Source: Massilia sp. erpn
GTDB taxonomy: Bacteria; Pseudomonadota; Gammaproteobacteria; Burkholderiales; Burkholderiaceae_D
Assembly: GCF_024400215.1 (NCBI RefSeq)
Contig: NZ_CP053748.1
Coordinates: 5,580,001-5,644,000, forward strand
Direction of reading: 5' to 3'
Length of the DNA: 64,000 nucleotides
The translations under genes and the position numbers were made by a program. Position 1 is the stretch's first letter. The number at the start of each line of letters is the position of its first letter. Under the pieces are notes generated by a model. The model did not search any database and had not been told where the DNA came from. It saw nothing but the letters and a program-made list of their open reading frames with translations. Positions 23,150-32,925 of this stretch are shown piece after piece.

Positions 23150-23644
23150 TCAGGGCGCCGCTTCGGTCGACAGCACCAGGGTTTCTTTGATCTCTTCCAT
23201 CACCACATAGCTCTTGGACTGGGCCGCGCCCGGCAGGTTCAGCAGCATATCGCCCAGCAGCTTGCGGTACTCGGCCATCTCGCGGATGCGCGCCTTGATC
23301 AGGTAATCGAAATCGCCCGACACCAGATGGCATTCCTGCACCTCGGGAATGCGCAGCACCTCGCGCCGGAACTGTTCGAACACCAGGGCCGATTTCTGGT
23401 TCAGCGTGATTTCCACGAAGACCAGCAGGGTCGCCCCCAAGGCAGGCGGGCTGATGCGGGCGTGGTAGCCGGTGATCACCCCGTCGCGCTCCATGCGCTT
23501 GACGCGCTCGATGGCCGGCGTGATCGACAAGCCGACCTGCTCGCTCAGATCCTTCATCGAGATCCGCCCATCCTCTTGCAGGATGCGCAGGATCTTGCGG
23601 TCCAGCTTGTCCAGGCCGCGCACGGATTCCTTTTGGGTTCTCAT
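23150..23644 (-). CDS. Lrp/AsnC-family transcriptional regulator
   Basis: A 164-residue regulator with an N-terminal winged helix (LDKLDRKILRILQEDGRISMKDLSEQVGLS, shown only as a pattern start) and a C-terminal RAM ligand-binding domain that includes LVSGDFDYLIKA. Lrp-type proteins form octamers and respond to amino acids. It is divergent from dadA across 106 bp, so it probably controls dadA, and D- or L-alanine or leucine is a likely effector. The operator itself I cannot pinpoint. Confidence 0.9.
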   Translation of the reverse strand: MRTQKESVRGLDKLDRKILRILQEDGRISMKDLSEQVGLSITPAIERVKRMERDGVITGYHARISPPALGATLLVFVEITLNQKSALVFEQFRREVLRIPEVQECHLVSGDFDYLIKARIREMAEYRKLLGDMLLNLPGAAQSKSYVVMEEIKETLVLSTEAAP

Positions 23645-23750
23645 GATTTATTAATGAATATCGCTCATTTTATGGTAACAAACACTGGAGAAACAAACTT
23701 ATCATAGTAAAAATCCCCGCACAAGAAATAATTAATACATAGGAAGAGAC

Positions 23751-25040
23751 ATGCGCGTCGTCGTTCTTGGAAGTGGCGTCATCGGCGTAACCACCGCCTA
23801 CTATCTGGCCAAGGCCGGCCACGAAATCACCGTACTGGACCGCCAGCCCGGTCCCGCCCTGGAAACCAGTTTCGCCAACGCCGGCCAGATCTCCCCCGGC
23901 TACGCCTCGCCCTGGGCCGCGCCCGGCATCCCGCTGAAAGCAATGAAATGGATGCTGCAGCGCCACGCCCCGCTTTCGATCACCCCGGACGGCACCCTGT
24001 TCCAGCTGCAATGGATGTGGCAGATGCTGCGCAACTGCAATGCCGCCAGCTATGCCGTCAATAAAGAACGCATGGTACGCCTGGCCGAGTACAGCCGCGA
24101 CTGCTTTAAAGTGCTGCGCGCCGCCACCGGCATCGAATACGAAGGCCGCCAGCAAGGCACGACCCAGCTGTTCCGCACCCAGAAGCAGCTGGACGACGCC
24201 GCCAAGGATATCCAGGTACTGGAAGAAACCGGCGTGCCCTACGAGCTGCTGACGCCCGAACAGCTGGTCGGCGCCGAACCCGGCCTGGCCGCCTCGCGCC
24301 ACAAGCTGGCCGGCGGCCTGCGCCTGCCCAACGATGAAACCGGCGACTGCCAGCTGTTCACCACCCGCCTGACGGCCATGGCCGAGGAATTGGGCGTCAA
24401 ATTCCGCTACAACGTCGATATCGGCAACCTGGCCATGAGTGGCGATGAAGTCAAGGGCGTGCGCTGCGGCGCCGAACTGGTGACGGGCGACAGCTTCGTG
24501 GTGGCGCTGGGCGCCTATTCGACGGCCTTCCTCAAGCCCCTGGTCGAGATCCCGGTCTATCCGCTGAAAGGCTATTCGATCACCGTGCCCATCGTCGATG
24601 GCGGCAAGGCGCCCGCCTCGACCATCCTGGACGAAACCTACAAGATCGCCGTCACCCGCTTCGACGACCGCATCCGCGTCGGCGGCATGGCCGAAATCGC
24701 CGGCTTCAATCTGGACCTGAACCCGCGCCGCCGCGAAACGCTGGAAATGGTGGTCAACGACCTCTTCCCCGGCGCCGGCAACACGGCCGACGCCACCTTC
24801 TGGACCGGCCTGCGTCCGATGACCCCGGACGGCACGCCCGTAGTCGGCCGCACCGGTCTGCGCAATCTGTTCACCAACACCGGCCACGGCACCTTGGGCT
24901 GGACCATGTCCTGCGGTTCGGCCCAGCTGCTGGCCGACCTGATCTCGGCCCAGCGCCCTGCCATCCGCGCCGACGACCTCTCGGTCAGCCGCTATCGTCA
25001 AGAAAGCGGCACGGGCCGTCCCGAGCTGGTCAACGCTTAA
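23751..25040 (+). CDS. dadA: D-amino acid dehydrogenase DadA
   Basis: A 429-residue FAD flavoprotein. It begins [20 protein letters not shown] (GxGxxG) and has the DadA-type [22 protein letters not shown] region and a C-terminal [17 protein letters not shown] that contacts FAD. It oxidatively deaminates D-amino acids, mainly D-alanine, and passes electrons to the quinone pool at the inner membrane. AGGAAG precedes the ATG. No racemase gene is adjacent. Two hairpin terminators follow. Confidence 0.92.
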
Positions 25041-26035: not shown

Positions 26036-26680
26036 TTAAGCACTGGCGCGCGCCAGCGGGTTCGGCGTCGGCTCGGCCACCTTGTGCAGCAGGTTGCGGT
26101 CGATATGGTGGAAAGGCTCGCTTTCCTTGCCGCGGATGAGCATCACCGTGTCTTCCTCATAGCCCCAGCTGCCGTCCTCGTGCTGCGTCACCTTGATGCG
26201 GTATTCCACCGTCTTGAAACCGAATTCCAGGAAGGGATTGGAGCGGATGCCATAGGTGTCCGATTCCAGCTTGGCCACCAGTTCGAACTCCTTGGCATCG
26301 GGCGCCACCGTGCCGGCCGCCATGGCGATCTGGCCGCGCGGAATGGCCAGGGTCTGGATCACGGTCTGGGTCGCCGGCTCCCACAACCAGTAGCCGACCT
26401 GCTCGTGGTAGGTCTTCACATTGTCCGGCTTATTGATGATGATCAGGTAGCGCAGGCCGTAGAACAGCTGCGGGCCATTGGTCACGGGATCGATAGGCTG
26501 CAGCTCGATGCGCTCGACGAAAGCCTGCTTGCGCGGACCGTCGGCCTTGGGCTTGATATCCAGGCCGCGCTGGCCTTCCCAGATGCCGGCCATGGCCGTC
26601 AGCGGGCCGAGGTTGGCGAGGGTATTGATGTCGATGTTGCTGGGTTCGGTGTAGATATCGTCGGAGAATTGTTGGCTCAT
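26036..26680 (-). CDS. Nitrobindin-like heme-binding beta-barrel protein
   Basis: A 214-residue protein. It has a GIWEGQRGLD (GxWxG) entry motif, then alternating strands including QLFYGLRYLIIINK and EQVGYWLWEP. This matches the FABP-like heme-binding barrel of THAP4/nitrobindin proteins, which bind ferric heme and NO. A proximal His is expected but I cannot identify it with certainty. The ATG at 26680 was preferred to the upstream one. It is the third gene in line with the aminotransferase and the hybrid kinase. Confidence 0.7.
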   Translation of the reverse strand: MSQQFSDDIYTEPSNIDINTLANLGPLTAMAGIWEGQRGLDIKPKADGPRKQAFVERIELQPIDPVTNGPQLFYGLRYLIIINKPDNVKTYHEQVGYWLWEPATQTVIQTLAIPRGQIAMAAGTVAPDAKEFELVAKLESDTYGIRSNPFLEFGFKTVEYRIKVTQHEDGSWGYEEDTVMLIRGKESEPFHHIDRNLLHKVAEPTPNPLARASA

Positions 26681-26733: not shown

Positions 26734-28956
26734 TCAAGCCGGTTCGCCCGCCATCACCCCCAGAAGATGCACCAGCTTGCTGGTATCGAGCGGCTTGACG
26801 AAATAGTGGTCGAAGCCGGCCGCCAGCGCGCGGTCCTGGTCTTCCTTGCGGCCATAACCGGTCACGGCGATCAGCTGGCAGCGCCCCGTTTGCGGCAGCT
26901 GGCGCAGGTGCTCGGCCAGCTGGTAGCCGTCGATATCGGGCAGGCCGATGTCGAGGAAGCAGATCTGCGGCGCCGTGGCGCGCGCCAGTTCGATCGCTTC
27001 GGTGGCGCGGTGGGCGATAAAGACGCGGTGGCCGGCGGCCTCCAGGAACAGGGCCAGGGTCTGGGCCGCATCCACATTATCGTCCACCACCAGGCAGCGC
27101 AGGCCATGCTGGGGCGGCAGGCTGTGTTCCGCCGGCTGGTCCAGGCCCGGCGCCACTTCGCCCTGGGCTGCCGGCAGTTCAATGGCGAACTGGCTGCCGC
27201 GGTCCGGCCCGGCGCTGTCGGCGCGCACCGTGCCGCCATGCAGCAGCACCAGGGTGCGTACCAGGGCCAGGCCCAGGCCCAGGCCGCCCTGTGAACGGTC
27301 CGAGGTACGTTCGCCCTGGGTAAACAGTTCGAACACCCGCCCGCACAGCTCGCGCGTCATGCCGATGCCGTCATCCTCCACCAGCAGGCGCACACGCTCG
27401 CCGTCGCGGCGCAGGCGCACATCGATCTGGCCGTGCTCGGGCGTGTACTTGGCGGCGTTGTTGAGCAGGTTGGCCACCACCTGCACCAGGCGCTTATGGT
27501 CGCCGCTGACAGCCTGCGCCTCGTCCGGCAGATCCAGGTTGAGCTGCTGGCGCTTGCTCTTAAACAGCGGATAGGTCTGTTCCACCGCGTCTTCCACCAC
27601 ATGGCGCAGGTCCAGCACCTGGCGGTTCAGCTTGACCAGGCCGCGCGTCACGCGCGAGACGTCGAGCAGGTCGTCGATCAGGCGTGTCATGTGTTCGACC
27701 TGGCGGCTGATGATGTCGGCCGTGCGCGCCACCGAGGGGTTGTCGCCATGTGCCATCTTCAGCACCTGGGCGCCGGAACTGATCGGCGCCAGCGGATTGC
27801 GCAGCTCATGCGCCAGCATGGCCAGGAATTCGTCCTTGCGCTTGTCGGCTGCCTGCAGCGAGGCGGCGGCGGCATCGCGCTCCCACTCCTTCTTCTGCAA
27901 GGCCAGGGCCATATCGTCCAGCGAGCGCGCCAGGTCGCTGATTTCCTCGTTCTCGTACTGCATGCCGGTGCGCGTATCGAGCGAGCCGGAAGCGATGCGG
28001 TTGGCGGTGCGCGCCAGCGCCTGCACCCGCCGCACGATCAGCACATCGCCGCCGAACCAGGCAGCCAGCAGGGCCAGGGTGACGGTGGCCACCAGGCCGA
28101 TGGTGGCGATCAGCTGGTCGCGCTGGGCCGCCGCCACGATTTCTTCCTGCGGGATGCCGATCATCACGGTGTAATCCGAGACCTCATGGCGGCCGACGCG
28201 GGCGAAGGCGTACATGCGCTCCACGCCATCGTCGTCGGCGACCAGGATCGGCGTCTTGGGCGGATGCAGCAAGCCTTTCTGCAGCGGCGCCGGCAGCTTC
28301 TTGCCGAACCAGGGGCCGGGATCGGGGCGGCGCGAGATAATGGTGCCTTGCGAATCGGCGGTCCACAGCACGGCGCCCGGCGAGAGCTGCACATCGAGCA
28401 CGAATTTATCGAGTTCGGCCAGGTCCATGGCGGCGAACAGCACGCCCACCACCTCCCCTTTCTTGATGACGGGATAAGTCAGGTTGATCGTATGCTTGCC
28501 GATCACACGGCCGAATACATAATTGCTGGCGACGAAGCGGCGCTCGCTGATGGCGCGCTGGAAGTGGGCGCGGTCGCCCAGGTTCACCATGCCGATCGAG
28601 GCCACGGCGCTGCAGGTCACATCGCCGTTCAGCCGGATCAGGCCGAAATTCACATAATCGAGATTCTTGGACAGGATGTCCGACATCAGCACGCTGCAAT
28701 CGTGCTGGTCGCCCAGCACATCGGGCACGCTGGACAGGTCGCGCAGGATCTGGCGCGCGCCCTCCAGCGACTGGGCTTCATTGGCTGCCGCCAGGTTGGC
28801 CACGCGCTGCAGGTTCTCGCGCGCCACCTCGATGGCGTGTTCGCGCTCGCGCATCCCGGTCAGCACCGTCATGGCGGCCATCGGCGTAATCGCCAAGGCC
28901 ACCAGCAGAATCAGGCGCCCACGCAGGCTGTTCAGGCGGAACACGTTCATCGGCAT
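26734..28956 (-). CDS. Membrane hybrid histidine kinase with Cache-type sensor
   Basis: A 740-residue kinase. A first membrane helix ([20 protein letters not shown]) and a second near residue 290 bracket a periplasmic sensor of dCache type ([21 protein letters not shown]). A HAMP-like stretch, HisKA ([14 protein letters not shown], His about 380), HATPase ([26 protein letters not shown]) and a C-terminal receiver (Asp about 668 in [14 protein letters not shown]) follow. It starts 7 bp after the aminotransferase stop codon, so they are very probably cotranscribed. The signal is unknown; dCache domains usually bind small molecules such as amino acids. Confidence 0.87.
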
Positions 28957-28963
28957 ACGGCTC

Positions 28964-30127
28964 CTAAGCCGCCTGGCCGGCCGCAGCCAGCTTGTTGCCC
29001 AAAGCGATGATGGCGTCCACGCCACGCTTCAGGGTGGCCACATCGTCGGCGATATAGCCGATGCGGATAAAACCGGCGCAGCCGAGGGCCTCGCCCGGCA
29101 TGATGGCGACGCGGTATTGTTCGATCAAGGTTTCGGCAAAGGCGTTGGTGTCCATGGTCAAACCCGAGATATCGCCCCACAAATAGGGACCTGAATCGGG
29201 ACGCGTCATTTTAATCCAAGGCACGGCAGAAAACATCCCCACCACCAGATCGCGCCGTGCGCGATAGTCGGCCACCAGTTCCGGCACGTCGCCGGTAGCG
29301 AAAGCCGCTTCGGCCGCCACCTGGCTCAGGGCCGGCACGGCGGCGGTGATCGGGCCTTGCAGGGCTTCCATCGATTTCACCAGCACGGCCGGGGCCACGG
29401 CGAAGCCGGCGCGCCAGCCCATCATGGCATAGCTTTGCGAGGCCGAGAAAATGGTGACGACGCCAATCTCGGCCCAATCCTTGGCCAGGGCCGCCAGGCT
29501 GTGGTGCTGCCCCGCGAAAATCAGCTTTTCATAGCTTTCGTCGACGATGCAGTGGGCGCTGCGGGCGCGCAGCCAGTCGGCGATGGCCAGCAGCTCGTCG
29601 CGGGTAAACACCTTGCCGCTCGGGTTGTGCGGGTTGTTGACGATCAGGACCTTGGCACGCGGCAGCGTGTCGAGGAAGGCGGCATCGATGCGCGCCGGCT
29701 GGTCGACCAGCACGATATTCAGTCCCAGCAACTGGGCGGTGGCGACATAGGCCGGCCAGTGCGGACGGAACACGATCACGGTATCGCCCGGATCGGTCAT
29801 GACATACAGGGACTGGTACAGCGCCTGCTTGGCGCCATTGGTGACGATGACTTCGGCCGCGCTGGCTGCAATGGCGTTTTCGGTGCCCACCTTGGCCGCC
29901 AGTTTCTGGCGCAGGGCCGCCGCGCCGCCCACTGCCGTGTAAGGCAGCAGCGGCTGCTGCACCGCTTCGGCCACGGCGGCGCGCACATGCTCGGGCGCCG
30001 GGAAGTGGGAGATGGCGATCGAAAAGTCGATGACCTCCTCGCCTTGCAACTTCAGTACATCAACACGTTCGTGCATGGCCGTGGTGGCCAGCGGCCGGGC
30101 GGCCGCAATCCGTTTAGATACCTGCAT
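28964..30127 (-). CDS. Class I PLP aminotransferase-family protein lacking the catalytic lysine
   Basis: A 387-residue fold-type I aminotransferase by overall sequence. Present are VTNGAKQALY, RPHWPAY (ring-stacking aromatic), NNPHNPSG (PLP Asn), VDESY (Asp and Tyr that hold PLP), GWRAGF and a C-terminal GFIRIGY with the substrate Arg. However, where the family has Lys (as in AKAFAMTGWR or SKTYAMTGWR), this protein reads SASQSYAMMGWR: the codon is CAA, Gln231. That residue forms the Schiff base with PLP, so ordinary transamination should be impossible. The ATG at 30127 was chosen over a TTG at 30160. It lies 7 bp upstream of a sensor kinase gene. Confidence 0.85.
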   Translation of the reverse strand: MQVSKRIAAARPLATTAMHERVDVLKLQGEEVIDFSIAISHFPAPEHVRAAVAEAVQQPLLPYTAVGGAAALRQKLAAKVGTENAIAASAAEVIVTNGAKQALYQSLYVMTDPGDTVIVFRPHWPAYVATAQLLGLNIVLVDQPARIDAAFLDTLPRAKVLIVNNPHNPSGKVFTRDELLAIADWLRARSAHCIVDESYEKLIFAGQHHSLAALAKDWAEIGVVTIFSASQSYAMMGWRAGFAVAPAVLVKSMEALQGPITAAVPALSQVAAEAAFATGDVPELVADYRARRDLVVGMFSAVPWIKMTRPDSGPYLWGDISGLTMDTNAFAETLIEQYRVAIMPGEALGCAGFIRIGYIADDVATLKRGVDAIIALGNKLAAAGQAA

Positions 30128-30175
30128 GTCGGGGCATACCTTTCTTGAAAAGTTAGCCAAAACATTTTACCAAAA

Positions 30176-30225: not shown

Positions 30226-32925
30226 TCAAACGCCGAGCGGGGCGGGCGCCGCCGCGCGTGTTTCCGCAACTTGCGAAATGAAATTAATTGCCGCTCCAGC
30301 CTGCAGCAAGGCGGCAATGCCGTCGGCCGCCAGCGGCGGGCTGAGCAGATAGCCCTGCAACTCGTCGCAGCCGTTGGCGCGCAGGAACTCACACTGTTGC
30401 GCCGTTTCCACGCCCTCGGCGATAACGCGCATCTGCAGCTGGTGTGCCAGCGAGATGATGGCGCGCGCAATGGCCTGGTCGTCGGCGCTGTTGGCCAGGT
30501 CGCGCACGAAGGACTTGTCGATCTTCAGGCGGCCGATGGGGAAGGACTTCAACGCCGCCAGGCTGGAATAGCCGGTGCCGAAATCGTCGATCGACAGCGC
30601 CAGGCCCATGGCCTCCAGCTCGCGCATCTTGGCCACGGCCTGCTGCACGTCACGCATGATCAGCGACTCCGTCACCTCCAGCTCCAGCCAGCGCGGCGCC
30701 AGGCCGCCCTGCTGCAAGGCCTCGGCCACGCGCGCTTCCAGGCGCAGGTCGTCGAACTGGCGCGGCGAGACGTTGACCGAAATGGTCAGCGGCGGCAAGC
30801 CGGCATCCTGCCAGGCGCGCCCCTGGCGGCAAGCTTCGCGCAGCCCCCATTCGCCGATGGCGACGATGGCCCCGCTCTCCTCGGCCAGCGGAATGAACTG
30901 GTCGGGCCGGATCGCGCCGCGCTCGGGATGCTGCCAGCGCAGCAGTGCTTCGACGCCGAAGATGCGGCCGCTCTCCAGGTCCAGCTTGGGCTGGTATTCC
31001 AGGCGCAGCTGCTGCTCGTCGACCGCCTTGCGCAAGCCATCCATCAAGGCCAGCTTCTCTTCCAGCGAGGCGTTCATCTCGCAGGCATAGAACTGGTAAT
31101 TGTTCTTGCCGCCATCCTTGGCGCGGTACATGGCCGCGTCGGCGTTCATCAGCAGGGTGCCGGGATCGGCGCCGTCGCGCGGATACAGGGAAACGCCGAT
31201 GCTGCAGCTGACCTGCACTTCCTGCCCTTCCAGGAGCACCGGCCGGATCACCTCGGCGCGGATGCGCTCCAGCAGCGGCGCGATGCTGGCCGCCTCGCCA
31301 CAGGCCTGCGGCAGCACCAGCACGAATTCGTCGCCGCCGAAGCGGCCCACGGTATCTTCGCGGCGCAGGCACAGGGCCATGCGCTCGGCCACCTGTTTCA
31401 GTAGCTCGTCGCCGGCATTGTGGCCCAGGCCATCGTTGACCAGCTTGAAGCTGTCCAGGTCGATGAAGGCCACGGCCACGGCCTGCTTGTCGCGCCGTGC
31501 CCGTTCGATGGCCTGACGCAGTCGCTCGCCGATCAGGCTGCGGTTGGGCAGGCCGGTCAAGGTGTCGTGGTGGGCCATATGGTAGATGCGCTCTTCGGTC
31601 GCCTTGCGTTCGCTGATATCGCGCACAATGGCCACCACGCCGCCCTCCACGCCCACCACCTGCCAGTGCAGCCAGCGCGCATCCACCTGGGGCATGATGT
31701 TTTCCATCTCTTCGTGATGGGTGCCGCCCAGATTGGTGATGCGCACCAGCTTGTCGAAGATGCCGTTCTCGCGCGTCTCGGGCAGCCAGGCGCACAGGGT
31801 CTGGCCCTGCAGCTCCTGCTTGCTCAGGCCCGTCATCTTTTCGGCGCGCGAGTTGGCGGTGGTGATGCGGAAATCGGTGATCGCGCCCTGCTCGTTGCGC
31901 AGGGCGCGCAGCACGAAGAAGGAATCCATATTCGCTTCCGACGCGGCGGCATAAGTCTCCTGCGCCAGGCGGATGCGGCGGCGCGCGCGCGCGCCCTGCC
32001 AGCACCACAGCCAGGTCATGGCCATGGCCATCAGCAGCACGGCGCTGGCCACGCCCGCTTCCCACAGATGATTCAGGCGGCGCTGCTCGACGCTGGCCAT
32101 CACTTCGCTTTCGGCCATGCCGGCCACCGCCGTCAGCGCAAAGCCGTGCAGCGGACGCGCCGCCATATAGCGGCGGATGCCGTCCCAGGGACTGGCCTGG
32201 GGCTGGCCCTGCGACAGCGGCGCGCGCGCCAGGCTCTGGCCCCAGGAGACTTTTTCGCCCACGCGCAGCACGCGCAGCACGCCGTCCTGGCCCAGCAGGC
32301 CTTGCACGCCCAGTTCGCCCTGGCGCGAACGCTCGTAGCCGCTGGTGAAATAGGCGGGATCGACTTCGACGATGGCAATGCCGGCGAAATTGCCGCCGGC
32401 ATCGTTCAGGCGGCGCGTGAAATGCAGGTGCCAGTCCTGGTTGGCCTGGTCGCGCATGGTCTGCGCCACATACACGCTATCGCTATTGCGCGCCTTGTGC
32501 ACCTTGAAATAATCCTGGCCGCTGACCGGAATATTGCGCGCCGCCGGACTGCTGGCGATAGTATTGCCGCGCGCATCGGTCAGGCTGACCACGAACACCA
32601 GGCCGGAAGGCAGCAGGCCTTGCTGCGCCAGTTCCTTGAGCGCCTGCTCCGGCCCCTTCTTTTCGGTCACGTATTTCAGCAGCTTGAGGGTCTGGTCGAT
32701 ACCGTTCAGATTGCGCGCCACCTGCGCCTCGTAGGTGGCGATCAGCTCCTGCACCGACTCCACGGCGGCGGCGCGCGCGGCGGCGCGTTCGGCGTCGATG
32801 AAATGCAGGGTCACGCCCCAGATGGCCGCCAGCAGCACCACGGTGAACAGTGGCAGGGACAGGAAGGCGTCCTGCCACCAGCGCAGCAAACGCATGCCGC
32901 GGCTTTCGCGTCGCAGTTGGCCCAT
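30226..32925 (-). CDS. Membrane GGDEF-EAL protein with Cache and PAS domains
   Basis: An 899-residue c-di-GMP enzyme. A membrane helix near residue 25 starts a periplasmic dCache sensor to about residue 285, a second helix (AGVASAVLLMAMAMTWLW) follows, then PAS, GGDEF and EAL. The GGDEF loop is intact (GRFGGDEF) with an RRED I-site. The EAL part has EALLRW, DDFGTGYSSL, IDKSF and EGVET, so both synthesis and breakdown are possible. The ATG shares one base with the stop codon of the upstream PstS-like gene (TGATG), which indicates coupled translation. Confidence 0.92.
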   Translation of the reverse strand: MGQLRRESRGMRLLRWWQDAFLSLPLFTVVLLAAIWGVTLHFIDAERAAARAAAVESVQELIATYEAQVARNLNGIDQTLKLLKYVTEKKGPEQALKELAQQGLLPSGLVFVVSLTDARGNTIASSPAARNIPVSGQDYFKVHKARNSDSVYVAQTMRDQANQDWHLHFTRRLNDAGGNFAGIAIVEVDPAYFTSGYERSRQGELGVQGLLGQDGVLRVLRVGEKVSWGQSLARAPLSQGQPQASPWDGIRRYMAARPLHGFALTAVAGMAESEVMASVEQRRLNHLWEAGVASAVLLMAMAMTWLWCWQGARARRRIRLAQETYAAASEANMDSFFVLRALRNEQGAITDFRITTANSRAEKMTGLSKQELQGQTLCAWLPETRENGIFDKLVRITNLGGTHHEEMENIMPQVDARWLHWQVVGVEGGVVAIVRDISERKATEERIYHMAHHDTLTGLPNRSLIGERLRQAIERARRDKQAVAVAFIDLDSFKLVNDGLGHNAGDELLKQVAERMALCLRREDTVGRFGGDEFVLVLPQACGEAASIAPLLERIRAEVIRPVLLEGQEVQVSCSIGVSLYPRDGADPGTLLMNADAAMYRAKDGGKNNYQFYACEMNASLEEKLALMDGLRKAVDEQQLRLEYQPKLDLESGRIFGVEALLRWQHPERGAIRPDQFIPLAEESGAIVAIGEWGLREACRQGRAWQDAGLPPLTISVNVSPRQFDDLRLEARVAEALQQGGLAPRWLELEVTESLIMRDVQQAVAKMRELEAMGLALSIDDFGTGYSSLAALKSFPIGRLKIDKSFVRDLANSADDQAIARAIISLAHQLQMRVIAEGVETAQQCEFLRANGCDELQGYLLSPPLAADGIAALLQAGAAINFISQVAETRAAAPAPLGV

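Follow-up and report, generated by a model that had tools for sequence, protein, structure and literature searches.

The locus described here lies in a 64,000-nucleotide (nt) stretch of the genome of the soil bacterium Massilia sp. erpn (contig NZ_CP053748.1, positions 5,580,001 to 5,644,000; hereafter the window), where a class I aminotransferase-like gene is followed by the gene for a hybrid histidine kinase (Table 1). The name AT is used for this lysine-less aminotransferase-like gene and its protein, and for their orthologs. AT carries a glutamine, Gln231, where the aminotransferases of its family have the lysine that forms the Schiff base with pyridoxal 5′-phosphate (PLP). AT is probably a sensor rather than an ordinary enzyme, because this essential lysine has been lost in every close relative examined and because the gene precedes a kinase gene.

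Table 1. Features at and around the AT locus. Positions are counted from the first nucleotide of the window.
Feature	Position	Strand	Basis
AT gene, class I aminotransferase fold, PF00155	28964..30127	−	open coding sequence, 387 amino acids
CAA codon of Gln231, at the Schiff-base lysine position	29435..29437	−	alignments; invariant Gln in orthologs
Hybrid histidine kinase gene, dCache-HAMP-HisKA-HATPase-REC	26734..28956	−	Pfam domains; HisKA, HATPase and REC motifs; 740 amino acids from ATG at 28956
Gap of 7 nt between AT stop and kinase ATG	28957..28963	−	AT stop at 28966..28964, kinase ATG at 28956
TGGTAAAAT element, upstream of AT	30164..30172		
GGDEF-EAL protein gene, with PAS and a sub-threshold dCache match	30226..32925	−	
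THAP4-like heme-binding barrel gene (PF08768)	26036..26680	−	
Lrp/AsnC-type regulator gene (PF01037) divergent from DAO-family oxidoreductase gene (PF01266)	23150..25040		

PF00155 was the sole domain found in AT by Pfam (residues 31–373 of 387), and AT has the fold-type I aminotransferase fold. In the profile alignment, its N terminus aligned with known aminotransferases from residue 1 onward, and no signal peptide was seen by eye. A preliminary description of this DNA had placed Gln231, encoded by a single CAA codon, at the position of the family lysine, and this was confirmed by two alignments. A phmmer search against the PDB aligned the AT segment SASQ(231)SYAMMGWR with the GFAK/GAAK motifs of aspartate aminotransferases, and the profile alignment paired Q231 with K306 of Arabidopsis prephenate aminotransferase, which is changed in the mutant entry 5wml.

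Gln was present at this site in all 121 proteins compared (the query and 120 listed of 770 matches), in all 30 orthologs from 294 genomes of the family (58–100% identity), and in all 62 named clade loci that include this position, the three sets overlapping one another. In every set, AT thus lacks the catalytic lysine of an active class I aminotransferase. The 65 loci returned for the named set consisted of 63 clade loci, one of them a fragment without the Gln region, and two Streptococcus loci, which encode Lys-bearing aminotransferases of 30–32% identity. The preliminary description had reckoned with the case in which orthologs in sister genomes carry Lys and this copy is a lone point mutation or a sequencing error; the orthologs carry Gln, and a lone mutation or error is ruled out by its invariance in the three sets. 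Both Gln codons, CAA and CAG, are used among 29 loci, which indicates that the residue rather than the codon is conserved, even though a Lys codon is only one base change away. The ratio of nonsynonymous to synonymous substitution rates (dN/dS) of AT was 0.09–0.28, and no internal stops were found in the 30 listed orthologs. The argument made earlier against simple decay therefore stands, both on these ratios and on the invariant Gln.

The remaining PLP contacts had been described as kept, and they are. N168, D196, Y199, R239 and R355, in this family the PLP contacts and the carboxylate Arg, are present in AT, conserved, and common to 28 outside Lys-bearing relatives. The residues shared between the AT clade and these relatives also include T15, Y63, G98, K100, W124 and S230. 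In the profile alignment T15 and K100, both conserved in the clade, correspond to T84 and K169 of Arabidopsis prephenate aminotransferase (AtPPA-AT), which according to the entry titles are the residues mutated in 5wmi and 5wmk. The presence of this T84 and K169 pair (AtPPA-AT numbering) places AT in the aspartate/prephenate aminotransferase subgroup. The pair presumably sets the recognition of acidic and prephenate substrates.

At 36 positions, the AT clade and its Lys-bearing relatives are fixed for different residues, a switched position being one fixed in at least 97% of the 121 clade proteins and at least 85% of the 28 relatives. These include residues 38–41 (GEPD to AISH), 228 (G to S), 231 (K to Q), 236 (T to M), 259–260 (QS to PI), 313–314 (AF to GP) and 343 (V to M), and several of the switched positions presumably sit in the motif loops that line the canonical pocket. 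From the kept contacts and the coherent switches, it seems that the pocket was re-specified as a unit and then frozen. Judged from its sequence, AT is repurposed and not decayed, because the cofactor and carboxylate contacts are kept and the 36 positions have switched as a set. Only K79 and K100 are lysines in at least 90% of the 121 clade proteins. Since both are common to the Lys-bearing relatives (27 and 28 of 28, respectively), no new Lys stands in for the lost one, and a compensating lysine elsewhere in AT is ruled out. Three histidines, H41, H167 and H208, are newly conserved in the clade.

In terms of family assignment, the best matches of AT are aspartate aminotransferases, and the closest paralog in its own genome is only 27% identical. 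The best of the NCBIfam aspartate aminotransferase equivalogs, NF041091, scored 241 bits against a cut-off of 550, and none of the 25 listed NCBIfam families (of 70 matching AT) reached its cut-off. The source names of the clade proteins ('aspartate aminotransferase', 'pyridoxal phosphate-dependent aminotransferase' and similar) probably imply, wrongly, an active enzyme, and AT is best described as a Lys-less aminotransferase homologue that has been repurposed.

Lys was found in all 33 outside aminotransferase rows of the tree, while the Gln clade (12 rows) formed a single branch with 100/100 support and a very long stem (4.17). The tree tool flagged a meeting of long branches, and the exact sister group of the Gln clade is not fixed by the tree because the stem is so long. 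Profile searches found no bridging Lys-bearing sister group in the 294 family genomes or in 398 genomes of the phylum. Among the former, 30 clade members scored 486–719 bits, the lowest of them a truncated gene, and the next best match scored 247; among the latter, two clade members scored 663 and 708 bits and the next match 252. The four matches at E 1e-55 in 399 order-level genomes all came from the same family. When one genome from each of 84,980 species was scanned, 63 clade loci came up, every one of them in Oxalobacteraceae: Massilia 34, Duganella 16, Pseudoduganella 4, Rugamonas 3, Herminiimonas 2 (pieces of a single metagenome-assembled genome, MAG), Noviherbaspirillum 1 and Telluria 1, the remaining 2 having no genus label. 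The scan used two peptide patterns, and members without both would be missed.

The coupling to a sensor kinase, also noted in the preliminary description, is real and conserved. The kinase gene lies directly downstream of AT on the same strand in 29 of the 30 genome loci, and directly downstream likewise in 60 of the 62 named loci; of the two named loci without it, one ends less than 300 nt from AT and the other is from the Herminiimonas MAG. Every other neighbour family was confined to 11 or fewer of the 30 AT loci, in a count that set aside clusters of open reading frames overlying the AT and kinase genes, mostly antisense. AT-kinase fusions were not found, as the AT frame stops 1146–1179 nt from its start in all 29 kinase-adjacent loci. 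A GGAG sequence that can be read as a Shine-Dalgarno sequence straddles the AT stop codon, which suggests that AT and the kinase are translationally coupled, and many of the ortholog pairs have an ATGA overlap or a spacing of 4–15 nt. In the Herminiimonas MAG, the AT gene is seemingly split between two contig ends (L128 and L130), while in the matching genome, G025, the kinase gene is internal to a third contig; this is the sole likely case of an unlinked AT and kinase.

Among the 294 family genomes, the kinase was present in all 30 that carry AT, G025 included, and AT without the kinase was not found. In contrast, 19 genomes have an orthologous kinase without AT (sensor part 57–84% identical), and in these no AT was found anywhere at E 1e-60, nor did the kinase loci that were fetched hold any trace of it. 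For 12 of these genomes, one gene family flanks the kinase 164–250 nt upstream, and the same family is found approximately 1267–1595 nt upstream of the kinase in 5 AT loci, with AT in between. A GGDEF-EAL gene precedes the kinase in 2 further AT-less genomes and precedes AT in 3 AT loci. From these flanking families it follows that AT is the only gene that comes and goes at this one site. The presence and absence of AT on the kinase tree required 11 changes, of which at least 7 are forced by well-supported branches, although parsimony is blind to gain versus loss. The asymmetry between AT and kinase is the pattern expected if AT is an accessory acting by way of the kinase, and it favours a sensor or regulator over a free-standing metabolic enzyme. 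The preliminary description had suggested that AT binds PLP or an amino acid without turnover as a sensor or regulatory subunit, or runs a different reaction. The asymmetry (30 of 30 versus 19 kinase-only genomes) favours the former branch, with PLP or amino acid binding, kinase contact and a total lack of catalysis as putative features of AT.

Of the explanations considered, the following accounts best for these observations. An aspartate/prephenate-type aminotransferase would have been turned into a cytoplasmic ligand-binding accessory of the hybrid sensor kinase, and AT retains the contacts to the ring and phosphate of PLP or pyridoxamine 5′-phosphate (PMP) and those to the alpha- and distal carboxylates of a ligand. 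With Gln231 in place of the Schiff-base Lys, no internal aldimine can form, and the usual route of transamination is not expected to operate. AT should instead bind its ligands without turning them over, either PMP together with a keto acid or PLP in a stable external aldimine with a dicarboxylic amino acid. Closure of the fold upon ligand binding would alter how AT touches the HAMP/DHp region on the cytoplasmic side of the kinase and so tune the output of the phosphorelay, with the dCache domain reading the periplasm in parallel. Because the internal aldimine is impossible and a laboratory K270Q mutant (3eia) gave a ligand complex, we see an even chance that AT is a cytoplasmic, non-turning-over receptor for a PLP- or PMP-linked amino acid or for a keto acid and modulates the kinase.

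Several observations weigh against this proposal. Kinases that lack AT are retained and conserved, which means that their basic function can do without AT, and in G025 AT and the kinase are on different contigs. The AT-less kinases are overall no less conserved than those paired with AT. Only two kinase columns (A174 and Y333) were conserved with AT and relaxed without it, and three columns showed the opposite; a convincing interface signature did not emerge when AT-paired and AT-less kinases were compared, the signal being weak and two-sided. The correlation between AT and kinase distances (Spearman 0.75; 406 pairs, 29 loci) is confounded by shared species history. H41, H167 and H208 could support unknown chemistry. 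The partnership of AT and kinase is inferred from genomics, and cofactor and ligand binding, the absence of turnover, physical contact with the kinase, the identity of the ligand and the direction of the effect are putative.

The chief alternative is that AT is a Lys-independent enzyme, which would use PMP, PLP or no cofactor, rely on Gln231 or on a new residue such as His41, and catalyze a different reaction, perhaps one that makes or removes the ligand of the kinase. We consider this rather unlikely. In its favour, the active-site motifs were switched coherently and are near-invariant, as they would be in an enzyme with a new specificity. However, Gln is a poor acid/base, no new Lys was gained (K79 and K100 are common to the Lys-bearing relatives), no other gene family lies beside AT in more than 11 of 30 loci, and AT was never found without the kinase in the 294 genomes (30 of 30). 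PMC8987622 describes the 3-dehydratases E1 and ColD, in which the same Lys is replaced by His, as still reacting via PMP, and PMC3566124 reports that the Janthinobacterium gene jqsA, which encodes an autoinducer synthase and is homologous to cqsA, adjoins the sensor kinase gene jqsS. CqsA is classed with the PLP-dependent alpha-oxoamine synthases (PMC6148460), whereas the best matches of AT are aspartate aminotransferases, not CqsA.

AT might also be one half of a heterodimeric aminotransferase, itself non-catalytic but contributing residues to a Lys-bearing subunit whose gene lies elsewhere, as SPT1 is to SPT2; we regard this as very improbable. Y63, which in this family presumably reaches into the active site of the partner, is kept in AT. 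SPT1, according to PMC6148460, lacks Lys and pairs with SPT2; for AT, by contrast, no Lys-bearing aminotransferase was found among the neighbours common to many loci (the clusters were not each annotated), the best paralog in its own genome is 27% identical, and the observed dependence is on the kinase. It is improbable, too, that AT has an unrelated moonlighting role as a scaffold, an expression spacer or otherwise, and merely shares the operon of the kinase: adjacency alone proves no contact and the AT gene is dispensable, but the pocket-motif residues are among the most conserved and the pair is kept in 60 of 62 named loci. A decaying pseudogene or a sequencing error is scarcely credible, even though the gene shows a pattern of repeated gain or loss, given the dN/dS of 0.09–0.28, the 30 listed orthologs free of internal stops, and the Gln that is invariant in three overlapping sets.

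The surroundings of the gene pair gave some further observations. The TGGTAAAAT element upstream of AT was also found upstream of the kinase in G106 (L200), a genome without AT, and is possibly a retained operon promoter. The GGDEF-EAL protein encoded directly upstream of AT has a same-strand homologue (at least 45% identity) upstream in 3 of the 30 AT loci, counting the window itself. Of the 37 further kinase-sensor loci that were fetched, 2, both AT-less, also have a homologue upstream. The THAP4-like gene downstream of the kinase is absent from the neighbours common to many loci, and the Lrp/AsnC and DAO-family pair probably serves D-amino acid catabolism. In other Oxalobacteraceae genera (g23, g44; L220–L234), the same sensor domain, 44–52% identical, is carried on a longer protein. 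In L220, the one longer protein read, a GGDEF/EAL-like output (by eye) replaces the kinase, and from its sequence this type is a natural output swap of one dCache sensor. A PP2C-like gene, also recognized by eye, lies upstream of the longer sensor protein in 13 loci.

If AT is indeed a receptor, it could represent a new type of sensory partner with which histidine kinases are equipped: an aminotransferase that stands on its own and that a Lys-to-Gln change has frozen into a cytoplasmic receptor for a PLP- or PMP-linked dicarboxylic amino or keto acid, which would give a membrane hybrid kinase a second, metabolic input and would be gained or lost without loss of the kinase. We put this forward tentatively, as possible but somewhat short of probable. 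If true, this natural, fixed Lys-to-Gln clade would show how an enzyme of central metabolism becomes a receptor, and the way in which sensor kinases read intracellular amino acid status could be tested with only two genes, for which genomes that have the kinase alone provide natural comparators. Literature searches, confined to open-licence PMC papers, listed no title that deals with a Gln-type aminotransferase beside a kinase, which is a weak negative.

The catalytic Lys is absolutely conserved in all catalytically active aminotransferases, according to Koper et al. 2022 (PMC9309667). Natural replacements were found in two places: His in the nucleotide-sugar 3-dehydratases E1 and ColD (PMC8987622) and the absence of Lys in SPT1/LCB1 of serine palmitoyltransferase (PMC6148460). 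E1 and ColD are, like AT, aminotransferase relatives with the Lys replaced, but they carry His and not Gln, belong to the sugar-aminotransferase lineage and are active enzymes. SPT1/LCB1 is likewise a natural PLP-enzyme homologue without the Lys; unlike AT, it belongs to the alpha-oxoamine synthase family, forms a heterodimer with a Lys-bearing paralog and has no kinase. The same Lys-to-Gln change in the same fold is found in the K270Q mutant of LL-diaminopimelate aminotransferase (3eia), crystallised with L-Glu according to the entry title; that mutant of a metabolic enzyme was engineered, whereas the change in AT is natural and fixed. The class I aspartate/prephenate aminotransferases (Arabidopsis PPA-AT 5wmh/5wml and the aspartate aminotransferases 1j32 of Phormidium and 1bjw of Thermus) are approximately 30% identical to AT, which differs from them in the Gln for the Schiff-base Lys, the 36 switched positions and the paired kinase gene. 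AT shares the arrangement of a gene beside a sensor kinase gene with the CqsA-CqsS, LqsA-LqsS and JqsA-JqsS systems, in which a PLP-type synthase gene adjoins the kinase gene, also in Oxalobacteraceae (PMC3566124 and PMC6148460). The CqsA systems are of the active alpha-oxoamine-synthase type, whereas AT is of the aspartate-aminotransferase type without the Lys and is paired with a dCache hybrid kinase; it is set apart from CqsA by the absent Lys and by its best matches, without direct comparison to a CqsA sequence. In MocR/GabR, the aminotransferase fold is used as an effector-sensing module that is fused to a DNA-binding domain and keeps the Lys, while AT is free-standing, carries Gln, and has no DNA-binding domain that was found beside PF00155.
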